Origin: SAR202 cluster bacterium
GTDB lineage: Bacteria > Chloroflexota > Dehalococcoidia > Lucifugimonadales > VGZY01
DNA length: 48,539 bases
Direction of reading: 5' to 3'
Assembly (NCBI GenBank): GCA_016872355.1
Contig: VGZY01000013.1
Location: 1-48,539 of the forward strand
Of this stretch, positions 898-30,745 are shown piece after piece; within the stretch, counting starts at the first letter, position 1, and the number at the start of each line of letters is the position of its first letter. The position numbers and the translations under genes are program-made. The notes under the pieces were generated by a model. It was not told the DNA's origin and did not search any database. It saw only the letters and a program-made list of their open reading frames with translations.

Positions 898-926
898 TTG
901 ACGGCGGTTAGAGCGGTGGCTATAAT
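898..926 (+). promoter_or_regulatory. Sigma-70 promoter of the 5S rRNA gene
   Basis: A -35 TTGACG (898-903), an exact 17-base spacer and a perfect -10 TATAAT (921-926) point to a start near 933, about 58 bases before the 5S gene. The leader contains a 5-bp hairpin closed by a GAAA tetraloop at 961-974. This is one of the best promoter matches in the window and shows the 5S is transcribed on its own. Confidence 0.75.
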
Positions 927-990
927 AACGAAGCTGTCGCAAGATACGGCCACGGCAACCGCAGCGAAAGCTGCCTTACCAACGTAAAAA

Positions 991-1111
991 CCCCCTGGTA
1001 GTTTGAGCGAAGTGGTCCCACCCGTTCCCATCCCGAACACGGAAGTGAAACGCTTCAGCGCCGACGATACTGCATGCGCAAGTATGTGGGAAAATAAGTC
1101 ACCGCCAGGGG
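991..1111 (+). rRNA. rrf: 5S ribosomal RNA
   Basis: The interval has the conserved 5S core (GTCCCACCCGTTCCCATCCCGAACACGGAAGTGAAAC type block at about 1015-1051, ending before the CGCCGACGATACTGC segment) and a terminal helix formed by CCCCTGG (992-998) with CCAGGGG (1105-1111). Length is about 120 bases, normal for 5S. No 23S gene lies upstream: the preceding 160 bases are leader and promoter, and before that is an oppositely oriented protein-gene pair. Confidence 0.93.
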
Positions 1112-1124
1112 TTTTTTTGTTTTT
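1105..1124 (+). terminator. Terminator formed by the 3' end of 5S and a T-tract
   Basis: The terminal helix of the 5S RNA is followed immediately by TTTTTTTGTTTTT (1112-1124), so the closing stem of the RNA itself precedes a T-run and can serve as an intrinsic terminator. No downstream RNA gene follows. Confidence 0.65.
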
Positions 1125-1488
1125 ATCCCACCGGCGTCCTTTTTCCCCTTCGTAACATGGCCGCTCGTTCCATTTCCCATTTCTCCACGATCGTCACCCG
1201 TCACCGCCTGGGTCAATGCCTTTGTCGGTTACGAATTCCGCAAGTCCACGCGCAGCTTGCAGCCAGAATCATTCGCCTTCCCCTTGGTACACCATAGGCA
1301 CGCGAGGTAGCGCGCCCCATCTCTCGCGATTTATAGGTATAAACAGCTTTTTTTGGTACACCCCCTGTGTTACAATTAACTTGGCTTCGTAAGGGGCGCC
1401 AGCCCCGCTAACGTCCAGGCTACCGAAGCCGTTTCCCACTTCCTCTTTTGTTCCCGATAGCGTAAGCAGATACCGTACATTTCTAAAC
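1125..1488. other. Non-coding stretch with a nested stem-loop upstream of rpsA
   Basis: No convincing gene is visible on either strand. A nested structure occurs at 1383-1430: outer arms GGCTTCG (1383-1389) and CGAAGCC (1424-1430), inner arms GGGGC (1393-1397) and GCCCC (1402-1406). A 10-base direct repeat TTGGTACACC occurs near 1286 and 1353. The structure lies upstream of the likely rpsA promoter, so it is outside the mRNA leader unless an upstream promoter is used. Confidence 0.4.
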
Positions 1489-1518
1489 TTTACACCCTCG
1501 CATCTGCATACCTATAAT
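1489..1518 (+). promoter_or_regulatory. Sigma-70 promoter of rpsA
   Basis: TTTACA at 1489-1494 (one mismatch to TTGACA), an 18-base spacer and TATAAT at 1513-1518 place the start near 1525, giving a short leader of about 35 bases before the GTG start of the S1 gene. Confidence 0.6.
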
Positions 1519-1559
1519 TGAAAAAGCCAGGACTACATCTTTAAGGGCGGTAACGGAAC

Positions 1560-2693
1560 GTGAGTTCAATTCAGCAGGATGCCGGCAGCACGCAGGACAT
1601 GGGGGAACTGCTCGACTCCTTTGAGCCCATGAAGCCACTTCGCTGGGGCGAGGTGATCCAGGGAATCGTTATGCGCTCGGACGCCGACGGCGTGCTCGTA
1701 AACATCGGGCACAAGGCCGAAGGCATAGTCCCGGCCGCAGAGATGCGGACTCTCGACAGGGCCGCCCTCGAGAAGATCAAAGTAGGCGATGAAATCCTCG
1801 CGATGGTCATAAAGGGCGAGTCAGCAGAGGGTGCAGCTATCCTCTCGATCGACAAAGCCCTGGGCGAGCTCGGCTGGCGCACGCTTGAAAAGTCCGTTGA
1901 CAGCGGCGTTGTCCTGAAAGGGAAAATCATTGGATTTAACCGGGGCGGCGCTATAGTAGAGGTGGAGGGCGTTCAGGGGTTTGTACCCATGTCCCAGATC
2001 ATAAGCGTCTCGCGAGAGCACTTCAAGGACAAGCCTGAGGGCGCGCCGGATACCACGTCATCCGAGATCGGCAAAGACCTGTCCCTCAAAGTCCTCGAAG
2101 TGAACCGGAGCCGCAACCGAGCCATCCTTTCCGAGCGGCAGGCGGTCCAGGAGCGCAGGGAAGAGAAGAAGGCCAAGCTGATACAGGACCTGGCCGAGGG
2201 CCAGGTGAGGAAGGGGCGGGTCACCGGCATCAGCTCCTTCGGCGCTTTCGTTGATCTGGGCGGCGCGGACGGGCTCATCCATATCTCCGAGCTCTCATGG
2301 AATACGGTGAGCGCACCGGACCAGGTAGTAAAGGTAGGGCAGGAGCTTGAGGTGTACGTCTTGAGGGTGGACCCGGACAACAAGAAGATCGCCCTGAGCC
2401 TCAAGCGACTGCAGCCAGAGCCGTGGGAGACGATTACCCAGCGGTACAACGTCGGCGATGTTGTGGACGCGGTTATCACCAAACTGACTGACTTCGGCGC
2501 GTTTGCCAGGGTGGAGGGCTCTGTAGAGGGGCTTGTCCACATCTCCGAGTTGACGCAGAAGATGATCAGCCATCCGCGGGAGGTTGTGGGGGAGGGAGAC
2601 AATGTGAGGCTGAAGATCCTTCGCATTGAGCCGGAGAGGCGCCGACTCGGGCTCAGCTTGAAGCAGGCGGTCGAGGAGCAGGGCCAGGTGTAA
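1560..2693 (+). CDS. rpsA: 30S ribosomal protein S1 (four S1 domains)
   Basis: This 377-residue protein is built of four OB-fold S1 RNA-binding repeats at roughly 29-98, 118-195, 213-283 and 297-370. Repeats three and four carry the typical FGAFVDLGG-x-DGLIHISELS and FGAFARVEG...GLVHISELT pattern, and the first two are more divergent. S1 helps the 30S subunit bind mRNA. The length matches the four-repeat S1 proteins of many Gram-positive and Chloroflexota lineages rather than the six-repeat proteobacterial form. It starts with GTG, with a weak GGGCGG ribosome site. clpC follows 53 bases downstream on the same strand. Confidence 0.9.
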   Translation: MSSIQQDAGSTQDMGELLDSFEPMKPLRWGEVIQGIVMRSDADGVLVNIGHKAEGIVPAAEMRTLDRAALEKIKVGDEILAMVIKGESAEGAAILSIDKALGELGWRTLEKSVDSGVVLKGKIIGFNRGGAIVEVEGVQGFVPMSQIISVSREHFKDKPEGAPDTTSSEIGKDLSLKVLEVNRSRNRAILSERQAVQERREEKKAKLIQDLAEGQVRKGRVTGISSFGAFVDLGGADGLIHISELSWNTVSAPDQVVKVGQELEVYVLRVDPDNKKIALSLKRLQPEPWETITQRYNVGDVVDAVITKLTDFGAFARVEGSVEGLVHISELTQKMISHPREVVGEGDNVRLKILRIEPERRRLGLSLKQAVEEQGQV

Positions 2694-2746
2694 GGTCCCA
2701 GCCGCTTCGGCAGGAAATTCGCACACTCCGTGCAGGAGATCACCAA

Positions 2747-5221
2747 ATGACAAGCAGGTTTGAAAAGTTTTCCGAGAGGGCTCGCCGGGTCCTGTCTCTG
2801 GCCCAGGAAGAAGCCCAGCGGTTCAACCATAACTATATTGGAACGGAGCACATCCTGCTCGGGCTGGTCCGGGAGTCAGACGGCGTTGCCGCCAAGGTCC
2901 TCTCCAACCTCGGAGTAGAGCTCAACAAGGTCCGGTCCGCCGTCGAATTCATCATCGGCAGGGGTGAGCGCAGCACTTCCGGCGAGATCGGCCTCACGCC
3001 GCGCGCAAAGAAGGTGATCGAGCTGGCAGTGGATGAAGCCCGCAGGCTCAACCACCACTACATCGGCACAGAGCACCTCCTGATCGGCCTCATGCGCGAG
3101 GGCGAAGGCGTCGCGGCAGGCGTCCTGGAAAGCCTCGGCATCAACCTGGACAAGGTCCGCGCCGAGACCAGCCGTATCCTCACGCAGACCTTCCAGCACT
3201 CCCAGGGCGGCACGGCATCAAAGCCCGCCACCCGCACCCCTACGCTCGACCAGCTCGGCATCGACCTTACGGCCGCCGCGCGCGCCGGCAAGCTTGACCC
3301 TACGGTCGGTCGCGAAAAGGAGATCCAGCGCGTCACGCAGATCCTCAGCCGCCGCACCAAGAACAACCCCGTCCTCGTCGGCGAGCCGGGCGTCGGCAAG
3401 ACCGCCATCGTCGAAGCTCTGGCACAGCAGATAGCCTCCAACGAAGTCCCGTCCACTCTCCAGGGCAAGCGACTGGTGACTCTGGACATGGGCGCGCTCG
3501 TCGCCGGCACCAAGTACCGCGGCGAGTTCGAAGAGCGCCTCAAGAAGGTCATAGAAGAGATCAAGGCCTCCGAGAACTGCGTCCTCTTTATCGATGAGAT
3601 CCATACCATGGTCGGCGCCGGCGCTGCTGAGGGCGCCGTGGACGCCGCCAATATCCTGAAGCCCTCCCTCGCCCGCGGCGAGCTGCAGTGCGTAGGCGCC
3701 ACGACGCTCGACGATTACCGCAAGTATGTAGAGCGCGACCCGGCCCTGGAGCGCAGGTTCCAGCCGGTGACCGTCGAGGAGCCGACCGTCGACATGACGA
3801 TTGAGATCCTCAAGGGCATTCGCTCCCGGTACGAGGAGCACCACCAACTTGAGATCACCGACGACGCTCTCCGCGCCGCCGCAACCCTGGCCGCCCGGTA
3901 CATCCCGGACCGGTTCATGCCGGACAAGGCAATTGACCTGGTTGACGAGGCTGCATCGCGCGTCCGCATCAACTACAGCACCGCGCCGCTGACGCTCAAA
4001 GAGACTTCCAAGGCGCTGAACACGGTGCGGACGGAGAAGGACGAGGCGATCTCGTCCCGCCAGTACGAGTACGCCGCCGAGCTCCGCGACCGCGAGACAC
4101 AGCTCGCCGAGAAGCTCATGGGCCTTGAGAAGGCATGGCAGGAGGAGCGCGGGAAGGACAAGCCGAAGGTCTCCGAGAAGGACATTGAAGAGGTTGTCTC
4201 GATGTGGACGGGCATCCCTGTGACCCGCCTGTCCGCCAGCGAGATGGAGCGCCTGAAGAATATGGAAGAGGAGCTCCACAGGCACGTCGTCGGCCAGGAG
4301 GAGGCGGTCACGATCGTCTCCAAGGCCACCCGCCGCGCTCGCGCCGGCCTCAAGAATCCCAAGCGCCCCACGGGTGTGTTCATCTTCGCCGGCCCTACAG
4401 GCGTGGGCAAGACGCACCTGGTGCAGAAGCTGGCGCAATTCCTCTTCGGCACCGAGGACGCCGTCATCCGCGTCGACATGTCGGAGTTCATGGAGCGCCA
4501 CGCCGTCGCGAGGCTTGTCGGCGCGCCTCCGGGCTACGTTGGCTACGATGAGGGCGGCCAGCTCACAGAGGCCGTCCGCCGCAAGTCCTACTGCGTCATC
4601 CTGCTGGACGAGATCGAGAAGGCCCACCCTGAGGTCTTCAACATCCTGCTCCAGATATTCGATGACGGCCACCTGACCGATTCGCGTGGCCGGAAGGTGG
4701 ACTTCCGCAACACGCTGATCGTCATGACGAGCAACATCGGCTCGGACCTGATCCGCCAGGACAAGTCGCTCGGCTTCAATACGAAGGTCGGCGACGAGGG
4801 CAAGAGCAAGGCCGATTACGAGCGCATGAAGGGCAACGTGCTGGATGAGATCAAGCGCTTCTTCCGCCCGGAGTTCCTGAACAGGATCGACGGCACGGTC
4901 GTATTCCACCCGCTGACCCGCGACCAGGTCCACAAGATCGTGGACATCGAGACGAAGAAGGTGGCCTTCAACCTGGTGGAGAAGGGCATCTCGCTGGAGA
5001 TAACCGACGCCGCCAAGGCGTGGATCGCAAACAAGGGCTACGATCCCCTGTTCGGCGCGAGGCCGCTGCGCCGCGTCATCCAGGACGAGGTTGAGGACCG
5101 GCTGTCCGACGCTCTCCTGGACGGCAGGTTCAAGACCGGGGACACCGCGCTCATCGATATCGAGAACGAGGTCCTCACCGTCAAGGCGAAGGCCCGCACG
5201 GAGCCTGTTGCCTCCAACTGA
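2747..5221 (+). CDS. clpC: ATP-dependent Clp protease ATP-binding subunit ClpC
   Basis: This 824-residue Hsp100 unfoldase feeds substrates to ClpP. It has two Clp-N repeats (residues about 1-145), a first AAA+ module with Walker A GEPGVGKT near 212 and Walker B LFIDEIH, a central UVR-type coiled segment (about 425-465), and a second AAA+ module with Walker A GPTGVGKT near 549, then the C-terminal D2-small domain. The UVR segment marks ClpC rather than ClpA or ClpB. AGGAG lies 8 bases before the ATG. No ctsR or mcsAB genes are adjacent, unlike Firmicutes. clpP is not in the window. Confidence 0.95.
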
Positions 5222-7223: not shown

Positions 7224-8612
7224 ATGGCGAAACGGTCCGAAAAGACACAATTCATGTGTGAGAGCTGCGGCGCAGATAGCCCGAAGTGGTCGGGCCAGTG
7301 CCCGGGCTGCGGCCAGTGGAATACCATGGTGGAGTTTCGCCCGGGCGCCGCGCGGCCGTCTGGGCGCGGCGGCGCCAGGGCGTCCGCTTCCGCCGTGCCG
7401 GCGCAAGAGCTGTCTGAAGTCTCCGTTGAGCGCGTTCTCAGGATGGATGTCGCCTCGGACGAGGTGAACCGCGTCCTGGGCGGCGGCCTTGTGCCGGGCT
7501 CGCTTGTCGTCATAGCCGGCGACCCCGGCATCGGCAAGTCGACCCTCCTGCTCCGTATCGCCGCGGAGATCGCGTCACGGCAGGGCAAGGCGCTCTACGT
7601 CACCGGCGAGGAGTCGATGGCGCAGGTGAAAATGCGGGCCGACCGCCTGGGCATCAAGGGCAACGGCCTCATTCTCCTGCAGACGACGCTCCTGAACGAC
7701 GTGATCTCCCATCTGGAGCAGGTCCGGCCCGCGGCGGCCGTCGTGGACTCCATCCAGACGATGTTCGACGATGGCCTCACATCGCCTGCGGGGAGCGTGG
7801 CGCAGATACGCGAGTGCACGCGTATCCTGATGGAGTGGGCGAAGGTGCACGACGTCCCGCTCATCCTCACCGGCCACGTAACCAAGGGCGGCGAGATCGC
7901 CGGACCCAAGGTCCTTGAGCACATGGTAGACGTGGTCCTTTACCTCGAAGGCGACCCGGTAAGCTCGTGGCGTTTGCTGCGTGCCGTGAAGAACCGCTTC
8001 GGCTCGACGAACGAGGTGGGCGTGTTTGAAATGGCCGAGCGCGGCCTGATAGAGGTCTCGGACCCATCCAGCGCGTTCCTTGCCGAGCACCGCGAGGGTG
8101 CCGTGGGCTCGGCCATCGTGCCCGTGATGGAGGGCAGCAGGCCGATGCTCGTCGAGGTGCAGGCCCTGACGAGTCCATCGGTGCAGCCGATACCCAGGCG
8201 TGTGGCGACGGGAATCGATCTCAACAGGCTGCTCCTCGTTTGCGCGGTCTTGAGCCGGCGCGTCGGCGTATCGCTCGCCACGCAGGACGTCATCGTGAAC
8301 GTCGCGGGCGGCCTGCGGATTTCAGAGCCCGCGGCAGACCTGGCCGTCGCGCTGGCCATAGCGTCCAGCGTGAAGAATGTGCCGGTCTCGTCCGGTACCA
8401 TAGCAATTGGAGAGATCGGCCTGAGCGGGGAGGTCCGCCGCGTGCCGCACCTGCAGCGTCGCATCTCTGAGGCCGCGCGCCTTGGACTCCGAAAGTGCAT
8501 CGTCCCCGCAGGGGGAGAGATGGGCGCGGACAGGGCCGTAGTGGACGGCACGCCCGTCGAGACCCTCGTCCACGCTCTCTCCCTTGCCCTGCCCAGAGGC
8601 AGAGAATCGTAG
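7224..8612 (+). CDS. radA: DNA repair protein RadA
   Basis: This 462-residue protein processes branched recombination intermediates. It has a C4 zinc finger (C12, C15, C26, C29), a RecA-like ATPase core with Walker A GDPGIGKST at 99-107, the RadA-specific KNRFGS motif at 256-261, and a C-terminal Lon-protease-like domain from about 300. The ATG at 7224 fits the family start and has an AGGG-type site. In Firmicutes radA follows clpC; here two metabolic genes lie between them. Confidence 0.95.
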   Translation: MAKRSEKTQFMCESCGADSPKWSGQCPGCGQWNTMVEFRPGAARPSGRGGARASASAVPAQELSEVSVERVLRMDVASDEVNRVLGGGLVPGSLVVIAGDPGIGKSTLLLRIAAEIASRQGKALYVTGEESMAQVKMRADRLGIKGNGLILLQTTLLNDVISHLEQVRPAAAVVDSIQTMFDDGLTSPAGSVAQIRECTRILMEWAKVHDVPLILTGHVTKGGEIAGPKVLEHMVDVVLYLEGDPVSSWRLLRAVKNRFGSTNEVGVFEMAERGLIEVSDPSSAFLAEHREGAVGSAIVPVMEGSRPMLVEVQALTSPSVQPIPRRVATGIDLNRLLLVCAVLSRRVGVSLATQDVIVNVAGGLRISEPAADLAVALAIASSVKNVPVSSGTIAIGEIGLSGEVRRVPHLQRRISEAARLGLRKCIVPAGGEMGADRAVVDGTPVETLVHALSLALPRGRES

Positions 8613-8651
8613 CGCCGGGCGGTCCCAAGATTTCTCCCAGAGGTTACACAA

Positions 8652-9860
8652 CTGCGAGTCGCATACCTTAACTGCACCGGCGGCGTAAGCGGCGACATGT
8701 TGCTGGGCGCGATCATCCACGCCGGCGTGCCTGTTGACGCGCTTGCATCCGAGCTCGCGAAGCTGAACGTGCCGGGCGTTGCGCTATCCGCCGCGCCGTC
8801 TGAACGCAACGGCGTTCACGGCATCCATGTCGTCGTGAAGCAGGACGCCTCTGTCCGCAAGGCACGCACAGTGGACGAGCTTGTCTCTATCATCGACTCC
8901 TCACCCCTCGCGGCCGCTGTGAAAGAGCGCAGCACGGCAGTCCTGCGCCGCCTGGATCAGGCGGAAGCCATTGCGCACGGTGTGGAGATCGGCCAGACGC
9001 ACCTGCACGAGCTGGGCGAAATGGATACGCTCTACGACGTCGCAGGCGCCGTCATCGGCCTCGACATGCTCGGAGTGGAAAAGCTGTACTGCTCTCCGCT
9101 GCCGACCGGCTCAGGCACGGTGAAGACCGCGCACGGCGTGCTGCCCGTGCCGTCGCCCGCGACCGCGGCCCTTTTCGCTATCGCAGGCGCGCCCACAACT
9201 CCTCCGCCGGGCAATATCCCGGACTCCGGCGAGATGGTCACGCCGACAGGGGCGGCAATTGTCACGACGCTGGCGGAGCTACGCCAGCCGCGCATGAGCG
9301 TTGAGCGGGTAGGGTACGGCCTCGGCACACGCAATCCGAAAGGATACCCGAACGTCGTCGCCATCTGGCTGGGCGATAAGGCTGACGAAGCTGGGGACGC
9401 CGGGATGTCTCTGCTGGACACGAACCTGGACGACATTTCGGCAGAGGTCCTTGGATACACACAGGAGCGGCTTTTCGCGCTCGGGGCGCGGGACGTGTGG
9501 TTCACCCCCATACAGATGAAGAAAAACCGGCCGGCGACGATGCTAAGCGCTCTCGTCCCTTCGAACCTGGAGCAGGTCGCCGCGAATCTAATCCTGCGAG
9601 AGACAACCAGCCTCGGCGTCCGCGTGCGCCCGATAACCAGGTACGAAGCCGGCAGGGAATACGTCCGGTTTGTCTCGTCCCTGGGCGAGGTAGGCGTTAA
9701 GATAAAGAGTATCGACGGCGCGCCGGTTTCGGTCTCGGCCGAGTACGAAGACTGCCGGAGAATAGCCCTGGATACCGGCCGGCCGCTACAGGATGTGATA
9801 AGAGTGATAGAGGCGGAAGCATGGGCCCGGCGCCTCCTGGAAGGGACTCAGCCCAAATGA
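8652..9860 (+). CDS. larC: LarC, nickel insertion protein for the nickel-pincer cofactor (CTG start proposed)
   Basis: LarC inserts nickel into the bisthiocarboxylic pyridinium mononucleotide that becomes the nickel-pincer cofactor of lactate racemase and related enzymes. The first ATG (8697) would remove the conserved N-terminus. In the same frame upstream the codons read [16 protein letters not shown], the family's standard start, and no ATG, GTG or TTG precedes it. A CTG at 8652 sits 8 bases after AGAGG. From there the protein is 402 residues, full length and not split into LarC1/LarC2. larB, larE and larA are not in the window. It overlaps the cysteine desulfurase gene by 4 bases (ATGA). 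Confidence 0.85.
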
Positions 9861-11044
9861 CCAGCTCGAACAAGCTCATCTACATGGACCATGCGGCAAC
9901 CACGGCGCTGCGGCCGGAAGCCCTGCAGAAGATGCTCCCGTACTTCACGCAGAGCTTCGGCAACCCGTCCAGCATCTACACCCTGGCGCAGGAGAGCCGC
10001 AAGGCCCTCGACGAGGCGCGCGACGTGGTGGCGAAGGTGCTCGGCGCACGGAGCACGGAGATCGTCTTCACCAGTGGCGGCACGGAATCGGACAACGCCG
10101 CCGTCAAGGGCGCGGCCCTCGCCCTGAAGAGCACCGGCAACCACGTTATCACATCATCCATTGAGCACCACGCCGTTCTCCACTCTGTCCACCAGCTTGA
10201 GCAGGCGGGCTACGAGGCGACGTACCTTACCGTGGACGAATTCGGCCGCGTCTCCCCGGAAGACGTGCGCCGGGCGATAACGGACAGGACGGCCGTTGTC
10301 AGCATCATGTATGCCAATAACGAGATAGGCACGGTGCAGCCTATTGCGGAGATTTCCCGGGTGGTGAAGGAAGAGGCGAAGCGACGGGGTCGGACGATCG
10401 TGTTCCACACGGACGCCGTGCAGGCCGCCGGACTGCTTGACCTGAATACCCGGACGCTCGGTGTGGACATGCTGAGCCTCTCCGGCCACAAGTTCCACGG
10501 CCCAAAGGGGACCGGCGTGCTGTTCGTGAGGCGCGGGACGCCCTTTGAGCCCCTGCAGGTCGGGGGCGGGCAAGAGAAGCAGCGCCGGTCCGGCACGGAG
10601 AACGTCCCGGGCATTATCGGGCTCGCTGAAGCGCTCCGTATCGCGGAAGAAGAGCGGGAGCACACCGTCGCCCAGTGCACCGTCCTGCGGGACCGGATAA
10701 TCTCCACCGTTCTGGACAGCGTCTCCGGAGTCCGCCTGAATGGGCACCCCACCGAGCGACTGGCGAACAACGTCAACTTCTCGTTCGAGAATATCGAGGG
10801 CGAGCCGGTCTTGCTCGGCCTGGACTTCGCGGGCATCGCCGCCTCCAGCGGGAGCGCATGCTCCTCGGCGTCGCTCGAGCCTTCGCACGTCTTGACGGCC
10901 ATTGGGCTACCGGCTAACATCGCGCAGGGCAGCCTGCGTATCACGCTCGGGGCGGAGAACACCGGGGAGGAAATTGATTACCTCCTTTCCATCTTGCCCG
11001 GCCTGATTACGAGGCTCCGGGGCATGCCGTCTCTGAGGAATTGA
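9857..11044 (+). CDS. Cysteine desulfurase (NifS/IscS family)
   Basis: This 395-residue class V PLP enzyme moves sulfur from cysteine to acceptor proteins. Visible are MDHAATT at the N-terminus, the PLP lysine K212 in [12 protein letters not shown], and the persulfide cysteine C335 in [15 protein letters not shown]. The short active-site loop is the NifS/IscS (group I) type. The ATG at 9857 has GGAAGGG upstream and overlaps the larC stop; the open frame from 9821 lies inside larC. Linkage to larC suggests sulfur supply for nickel-pincer cofactor synthesis, tRNA thiolation or Fe-S assembly; no IscU partner is present. Confidence 0.9.
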
Positions 11045-11144
11045 ACCTCCACGACAGAGACGCGCATCTGAATTAGTGTAGTGTGACAATACGCAAAGTC
11101 CACGGCCCGCAAATGGGCCTAGCCTTAATCTTCGGGAGGATTTG

Positions 11145-11480
11145 ATGGGGACCCCAAAGCACGTTAGCGACGCTTCGTTTGAGCAGGATGTACTGAAGTC
11201 CGACCTGCCTGTGCTGGTCGACTTCTGGGCCGAGTGGTGCGGGCCGTGCAAAATGATCGCGCCGGTAGTAGAAGAGCTTGCCAAAGAGTACGACGGCAAG
11301 GTTACTTTCGCAAAGCTGGACGTTGACAGCAACCCCCGCGCCGCGATGAAGTACGGCGTGCGCGGAATTCCGACCCTGCTCCTGTTCCGGGGCGGCGCGC
11401 CTATCGACCAGGTCGTCGGCGCAGTACCCAAGTCGCGGCTCAAAAACGTGCTCGACAAGGCCCTGGCCCGAACGGCCTGA
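11145..11480 (+). CDS. trxA: Thioredoxin
   Basis: This 111-residue protein has the thioredoxin fold with WCGPCK (C32, C35), a buried Asp in LVDFW (D26) and the cis-proline motif RGIPTLLLF. It reduces cytosolic disulfides. GGAGG lies 5 bases before the ATG; a TTG three bases upstream is less likely. The gene is followed by a strong terminator, and lies about 100 bases after the cysteine desulfurase gene. Confidence 0.95.
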
Positions 11481-28715: not shown

Positions 28716-28791
<76 letters not shown>

Positions 28792-28868
28792 ACGATGGAC
28801 CGGACGGTTGGATGGTCGCTCCCCCGTGGCACCCGGGATGGTGCAGGGGAGAGGACCGAGGCAGTTCT

Positions 28869-28897
28869 ATTGTAAATGGCGGTTGGAGGAATGGAAA
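28869..28897 (-). promoter_or_regulatory. Possible promoter for tRNA-Ala
   Basis: On the minus strand TTTCCA (28892-28897), 17 bases, TACAAT (28869-28874) precede the tRNA by about 80 bases, just after the 16S terminator. The -35 is weak. It would allow tRNA-Ala to be made independently of 16S. Confidence 0.4.
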
Positions 28898-28918
28898 GGG
28901 CCCCGGAGACCGGGGCCC
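28892..28918 (-). terminator. Terminator between 16S and tRNA-Ala
   Basis: A 9-bp GC stem (28898-28906 with 28910-28918, loop of three) is followed on the minus strand by TTTCC. It follows the 16S trailer and suggests that 16S transcription stops before the tRNA. The T-tract is short, so read-through is likely in part. Confidence 0.6.
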
Positions 28919-28922
28919 TGGG

Positions 28923-28951
28923 CCTTAACCTCTGAATAGTGGAAGGAAACC
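28923..28951 (-). repeat. 3' arm of the 16S processing stem
   Basis: This stretch is complementary to 30638-30666 upstream of 16S: 20 bases perfect (28932-28951) and 27 of 29 overall. The two arms flank the 16S gene and would form the long helix that RNase III cuts in pre-16S RNA. Confidence 0.8.
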
Positions 28952-29138
28952 AATGTGTTTGCTCTCAATGTTACTTGGAGCGTCGAAAATTCGGTGGGCT
29001 TTCTTGGAGCGCTCCATTGGCTGACCGAGGAGCTCCTCTTCCGATTGCTCGGATAGATCATGCTACTACTCGCGCTTAAGGTTTGGCGCTGCCCCACCGA
29101 CCGACCTGGGCTCTGGTGAGACCAGAGACCCTACTCCC

Positions 29139-30633
<1,495 letters not shown>

Positions 30634-30637
30634 TAAC

Positions 30638-30666
30638 GGTTTCCTTCCACTATTCAGTTGTTAAGG
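30638..30666 (-). repeat. 5' arm of the 16S processing stem
   Basis: Pairs with 28923-28951 across the 16S gene. It begins immediately upstream of the mature 16S 5' end and lies inside the transcribed leader. Confidence 0.8.
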
Positions 30667-30716
30667 TGATTGCGCCTTAGACTCGCGATGGCCGCTTATC
30701 TCGGCGCAGTTTTAAC

Positions 30717-30745
30717 ATTCTATCAAATCTGCGGGACCCTGTCAA
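30717..30745 (-). promoter_or_regulatory. Sigma-70 promoter of the 16S gene
   Basis: On the minus strand a perfect TTGACA (30740-30745), 17 bases and TAGAAT (30717-30722) put the start near 30710, leaving a leader of about 75 bases that contains the processing-stem arm. Confidence 0.8.

Follow-up and report, generated by a model that had tools for sequence, protein, structure and literature searches.

In textbook bacteria the 16S, 23S and 5S rRNA genes are transcribed as one operon, an arrangement that secures their equal supply. The locus studied here raises the question of how a 5S rRNA gene is expressed when no 23S rRNA gene precedes it. The window, as we call the whole stretch of DNA analysed, is a complete contig of 48,539 nucleotides; the draft genome to which it belongs comprises 133 contigs totalling 3.07 Mb and is estimated to be 97.6% complete. 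A sequence-only reading of the window had proposed that positions 898-1124 carry a stand-alone 5S rRNA gene with its own promoter and terminator. From the sequence evidence set out below, we consider it highly probable that this region is a complete private transcription unit of the genome's only 5S rRNA gene, with a sigma-70-type promoter, a boxA-like leader and a T-run end, that the 16S and 23S rRNA genes are private units as well, and that a 23S rRNA gene has been lost from the position upstream.

The three rRNA genes of the genome lie apart

A covariance model search places the 5S rRNA gene at 994-1110 on the forward strand, with model RF00001 matched completely (positions 1-120) at 82.2 bits against a gathering score of 38. 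No other 5S passes the cut-off in a genome-wide search, which covers the assembled sequence of the 133 contigs; the next candidate scores 14 bits. The single 16S rRNA gene found in the genome also lies in the window, at 29142-30633 on the reverse strand (RF00177, 1518 bits), and the single 23S rRNA gene found is at 8214-11177 of another contig (C20). All three genes are thus separate, since the 16S is 28 kb from the 5S on the opposite strand and the 23S is on a different contig. By distance or strand, one promoter cannot serve them all.

Whether a further 5S follows the 23S rRNA gene was a check called for by the sequence-only reading. Downstream of the 23S we find a tRNA-Met, a hairpin that resembles a terminator and has a T-rich tail, and then a coding region on the opposite strand, and no 5S occurs within 1.5 kb behind the 23S on C20. 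In front of the 5S gene, where that reading had seen opposite-strand genes and no 23S, are 993 nt with weak minus-strand open reading frames at 232-645 and 617-829, neither of which has a Pfam match. A further minus-strand frame at 816-1040, overlapping both the promoter and the 5S gene, was judged spurious.

The separation could in principle be an assembly artefact in which truly adjacent 23S and 5S genes were broken apart or misjoined; the genome is a draft of many contigs and rRNA regions often break assemblies. However, each of the two genes is internal to its contig and has unrelated sequence around it, namely the opposite-strand frames before the 5S and the 1.5 kb free of 5S behind the 23S. 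In relatives, too, the two are separate within one contig, and a promoter stands where the 23S would be. We therefore regard an artefact as extremely improbable. The genes appear to be genuinely apart, and five relatives carry 16S, 23S and 5S on one contig, separated by tens of kb, hundreds of kb or more.

A predicted promoter, leader and T-run frame the 5S rRNA gene

The near-consensus promoter noted earlier was recovered by our consensus scan, with a -35 element TTGACG at 898-903 and a -10 element TATAAT at 921-926 on the forward strand, separated by a 17-nt spacer and together matching 11 of 12 consensus positions. The distance of 58 bases to the 5S gene given for it fits a transcription start near 933-936; the -10 box itself ends 67 nt before the gene. 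Such a sigma-70-type promoter would initiate the 5S transcript near 933.

A rival view is that the 5S is read together with other genes from a promoter further upstream and that the match at 898 arose by chance. Sites of lower quality (at least 9/12) are indeed expected by chance, at 0.8 per kb region. Sites of at least 11/12 with a spacing of 16-18 nt are far scarcer: both strands of the window, 97 kb in all, hold just three, at 898 before the 5S gene, at 1489 before the gene for an S1-domain protein and at 30745 on the reverse strand before the 16S gene, in each case ahead of an expected unit. The frames upstream of the 5S are on the other strand, and in relatives promoters are found at corresponding positions. 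A chance match is in our judgement highly improbable, and the predicted motif, together with its recurrence in relatives, argues for independent transcription of the 5S. The site before the S1-domain gene is the promoter-like sequence TTTACA-18-TATAAT (1489-1518, forward strand), so readthrough from the 5S unit is not required for that gene.

From this promoter a leader of about 60 nt (933-993, forward strand) would be transcribed ahead of the 5S. Its predicted fold is more stable than that of shuffled sequences (z = -2.5), and leaders of similar length occur in relatives belonging to one clade of the 23S tree. The GAAA-tetraloop hairpin that had been noted in the leader is present in the predicted fold as GCAGC-GAAA-GCTGC at 961-974. 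It is followed by a degenerate boxA-like element, CTGCCTTACCAACGTAAA, at 971-988, which ends 5 nt before the 5S gene and is the leader's top match to a boxA profile derived from 16S and 23S leaders.

At the other end, the T-run TTTTTTTGTTTTT occupies 1112-1124 on the forward strand, directly after helix I of the 5S, just where it had been described. The predicted fold also pairs AAAAACCCCC with GGGGUUUUU, joining an A-run/C-run before the 5S to a G-run/T-run behind it. With the extended closing helix of the 5S, the T-run is a likely intrinsic terminator, and transcription would stop there. A simple terminator scan allowing loops of 3-8 nt called no site at the 3' end of the 5S; it would miss such a terminator because the "loop" is the entire 5S. 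The terminator hairpin is thus likely to be the modelled 5S structure itself and not a standard short hairpin.

The 16S and 23S rRNA genes as private units

The 16S gene and its flanking elements occupy 28716-30745 on the reverse strand. The gene is headed by a promoter TTGACA-17-TAGAAT (30717-30745) and a boxA, TCACCTTAACAACTGAAT, in the leader (30652-30669), both on the reverse strand, shows complementarity between leader and trailer, and is followed by a G+C-rich terminator-like hairpin near 28890-28920, after which comes a tRNA-Ala. The 23S unit on C20 (positions 1300-4700 of locus L003) has a promoter TTGACT-17-TAGAAT and a boxA in its leader. Judged by these motifs, the 16S and 23S each form a single private unit as well, which would be driven by a promoter with 17-nt spacing and carry a clear boxA leader. 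With three private units built from similar modules, a balanced rRNA supply would rest on the promoter-leader modules and not on co-transcription.

Unlinked 5S rRNA genes recur with their own promoters in the class

Our search for 5S genes took in 148 genomes from the class and 117 from the order; the family of the window genome holds no further genome. The 23S was located by the exact sarcin-ricin-loop sequence AGTACGAGAGGACC, a search that misses about half of the genomes because it accepts exact copies only, and 5S loci were classified as linked or unlinked by blastn with the 23S tail. A 23S tail precedes 30 of the 139 loci read, at a distance of 31-333 nt; the other 109 have none upstream. 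On this sequence survey, separation of 5S from 23S is systematic across the order and the class. The earlier statement that a private 5S gene is much less usual stands for bacteria overall, in which 23S-5S separation is described as very unusual (PMC8172020), and does not hold within this class: unlinked 5S genes are common here and rare in bacteria as a whole.

Other arrangements occur as well. The Dehalococcoides-like family has its 16S apart and its 23S and 5S together, and in a further family, represented by two genomes, the 16S is at most about 2 kb before the 23S with the 5S at another site, which makes a third arrangement in the class. Two or more 5S copies were seen in four genomes, one of which has one linked and one unlinked copy. 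On the 23S tree the linked and unlinked states interchange at least seven times, one of these changes possibly owing to a doubtful genome (G181). Its 16S-23S-5S operon probably lies on a foreign or contaminating contig, the 23S-tree branch being 0.95 long.

Within the 200 nt upstream, a promoter of at least 10/12 is present at 58 of the 103 unlinked loci, where shuffled sequences lead one to expect 3.4, and at 2 of the 30 linked loci. Among the 84 unlinked loci with a promoter of at least 9/12, 58 have a -10 box that ends 5-24 nt upstream of the 5S and 16 have one that ends about 50-75 nt upstream of it; these distances are not random. As far as predicted promoters tell, there are two 5S designs in the relatives, a near-leaderless one, which is the commonest, and one with a leader of 50-80 nt. 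In the near-leaderless design transcription would begin directly at the 5' end of the mature 5S or a few nt upstream of it. The long-leader design, to which the window genome belongs, has a hairpin and a degenerate boxA-like element resembling those of 16S and 23S leaders. All long-leader genomes placed on the 23S tree fall within one clade (support 100), which has near-leaderless members too.

The reading of the locus as a private 5S transcription unit is thus borne out as far as genome comparison reaches: there is no second 5S behind the 23S, promoters recur at unlinked and not at linked 5S genes, and five relatives have all three genes apart. Beyond that reading, our analysis adds the boxA-like element after the hairpin, a conserved locus of 5S, S1-domain and ClpC genes, and the 16S and 23S as single private units.

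A boxA-like signal in long 5S leaders

The boxA profile was built from 16S and 23S leaders, which in this order have a strong common boxA with the consensus GCACCTTAACAACTGAAT, and was then run over the 5S leaders. The match in the window's 5S leader is by itself weak (p about 0.02) and deviates at several positions from the boxA of the 16S and 23S leaders. For the 16 long 5S leaders jointly, the summed score was reached by none of 2000 column-permuted profiles, and the best match lies at most 12 nt from the 5S in 14 of them (4 of 2000 permuted profiles). When each family contributed one leader, 1 of 3000 permuted profiles reached the sum and the preference for position was weaker (113 of 3000). 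Near-leaderless loci gave no boxA signal (62 of 300 permutations) and linked 5S loci a mild one (6 of 300).

This leaves two views of the leader. The hairpin and boxA-like stretch may have no function in antitermination and be either a remnant of an old 23S-5S spacer or plain leader. A gene of 117 nt hardly needs antitermination, most relatives do with almost no leader, the window's own match is weak, and the mild signal at linked loci is what a remnant would lead one to expect. Set against this are the recurrence of the signal across ten families at near-equal distance from the 5S and its strength with one leader per family, above 2999 of the 3000 permuted profiles. We put the non-functional alternative just short of an even chance. 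Our preferred reading, a putative rrn-type boxA transcribed in the 5S leader, would make this element a degenerate counterpart of those ahead of the 16S and 23S.

Two related sequence features were observed along the way. In the Dehalococcoides-like family, the 23S-5S spacers of two loci contain strong boxA-like stretches (CAAGGTTAACAAGTGAAT and TCAGATTAAAAACTTAAT). Many 23S leaders have a long G+C-rich hairpin and a T-rich stretch immediately before boxA, and by its sequence this hairpin looks like a terminator that antitermination would need to pass.

The 5S gene probably kept its place while the 23S left

Downstream of the 5S and on the same strand are a gene for a protein with four S1 stretches (1560-2693), a conserved neighbour of the 5S, and a second conserved neighbour encoding a ClpC-type ATPase (2747-5221), both assigned by Pfam. 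Searched against named genomes, the S1-domain protein had distant matches alone, in Firmicutes and Thermotogae. One or the other of these lies downstream on the same strand at 83 of 107 unlinked loci and at 14 of 29 linked loci, the latter having mostly been read over 500 nt only; 24 of the 107 unlinked loci have neither neighbour in the stretch read. Because the order 5S-S1-ClpC is common to linked and unlinked genomes, it was probably the 23S that left, the 5S remaining in place. The ancestral order was then probably 23S-5S-S1-ClpC, as far as gene order can indicate the direction of the move, and the window's 5S would still occupy its original position ahead of the S1 and ClpC genes, the 23S having been lost from upstream.

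RNase E/G and RNase M5 were not found in 20 genomes

Neither RNase E/G (PF10150) nor RNase M5 (TIGR00334) was found in any of 20 genomes searched, linked and unlinked, although control genomes were positive. These absences alone do not explain the separation of the 5S, since linked relatives lack both enzymes too; they may have given an advantage to a near-leaderless 5S. In the window genome, the leader of about 60 nt would need another nuclease for its trimming. A wider reading, which we hold to be possible rather than probable, is that the class freed its 5S genes from the rRNA operon in lineages without RNase E/G and RNase M5, that in most of these the placement of the promoter fixes, or comes close to fixing, the 5' end of the mature 5S, and that one clade, including the window genome, runs its 5S as a miniature rrn operon with a hairpin-boxA leader.

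Discussion

Separate 5S genes are known elsewhere. In TACK archaea the 5S is usually separate and independently transcribed, and in Thermoplasma acidophilum no two of the three rRNA genes are linked (PMC8339473). There, as here, the 5S is physically apart, with its own transcription there and predicted transcription here; the archaea use archaeal promoters and processing, whereas our loci have a bacterial sigma-70-type promoter, a T-run and in part a boxA-like leader. Among bacteria, Mycoplasma hyopneumoniae and M. flocculare also have a 5S apart from the 16S-23S operon (PMC5609426, PMC4357767), but in reduced, host-bound genomes with 16S and 23S still linked; here the genome measures 3.1 Mb, all three genes are apart and many families are involved. 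Unlinked rRNA genes, as in the window genome, have been reported from CPR bacteria, sometimes with 23S and 5S apart (PMC8172020), and recorded for Dehalococcoides (PMC7761764); unlike the window genome, loci of the Dehalococcoides-like family retain the 23S-5S linkage. The E. coli rrn leaders carry boxB, boxA and boxC in that order, with a second set before the 23S (PMC10250234). The likeness is a hairpin and then a boxA ahead of rRNA, and the difference is that here a degenerate, putative boxA precedes a lone 5S. Against the open-licence literature, four things appear to be new: how widely the separation extends through the class, the conservation of the locus, the existence of two promoter designs and a 5S leader of rrn-like kind.

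Taken together, these results describe an entire bacterial lineage, with genomes of ordinary size, in which the rRNA operon has been fully dismantled. With the operon taken apart, equal supply of the three rRNAs must depend on three separate promoters. As both known families of 5S-maturation endonucleases are apparently absent, the lineage makes it directly testable whether the start and stop of transcription take the place of 5S processing. What boxA does where no long rRNA follows can likewise be asked in these natural cases.
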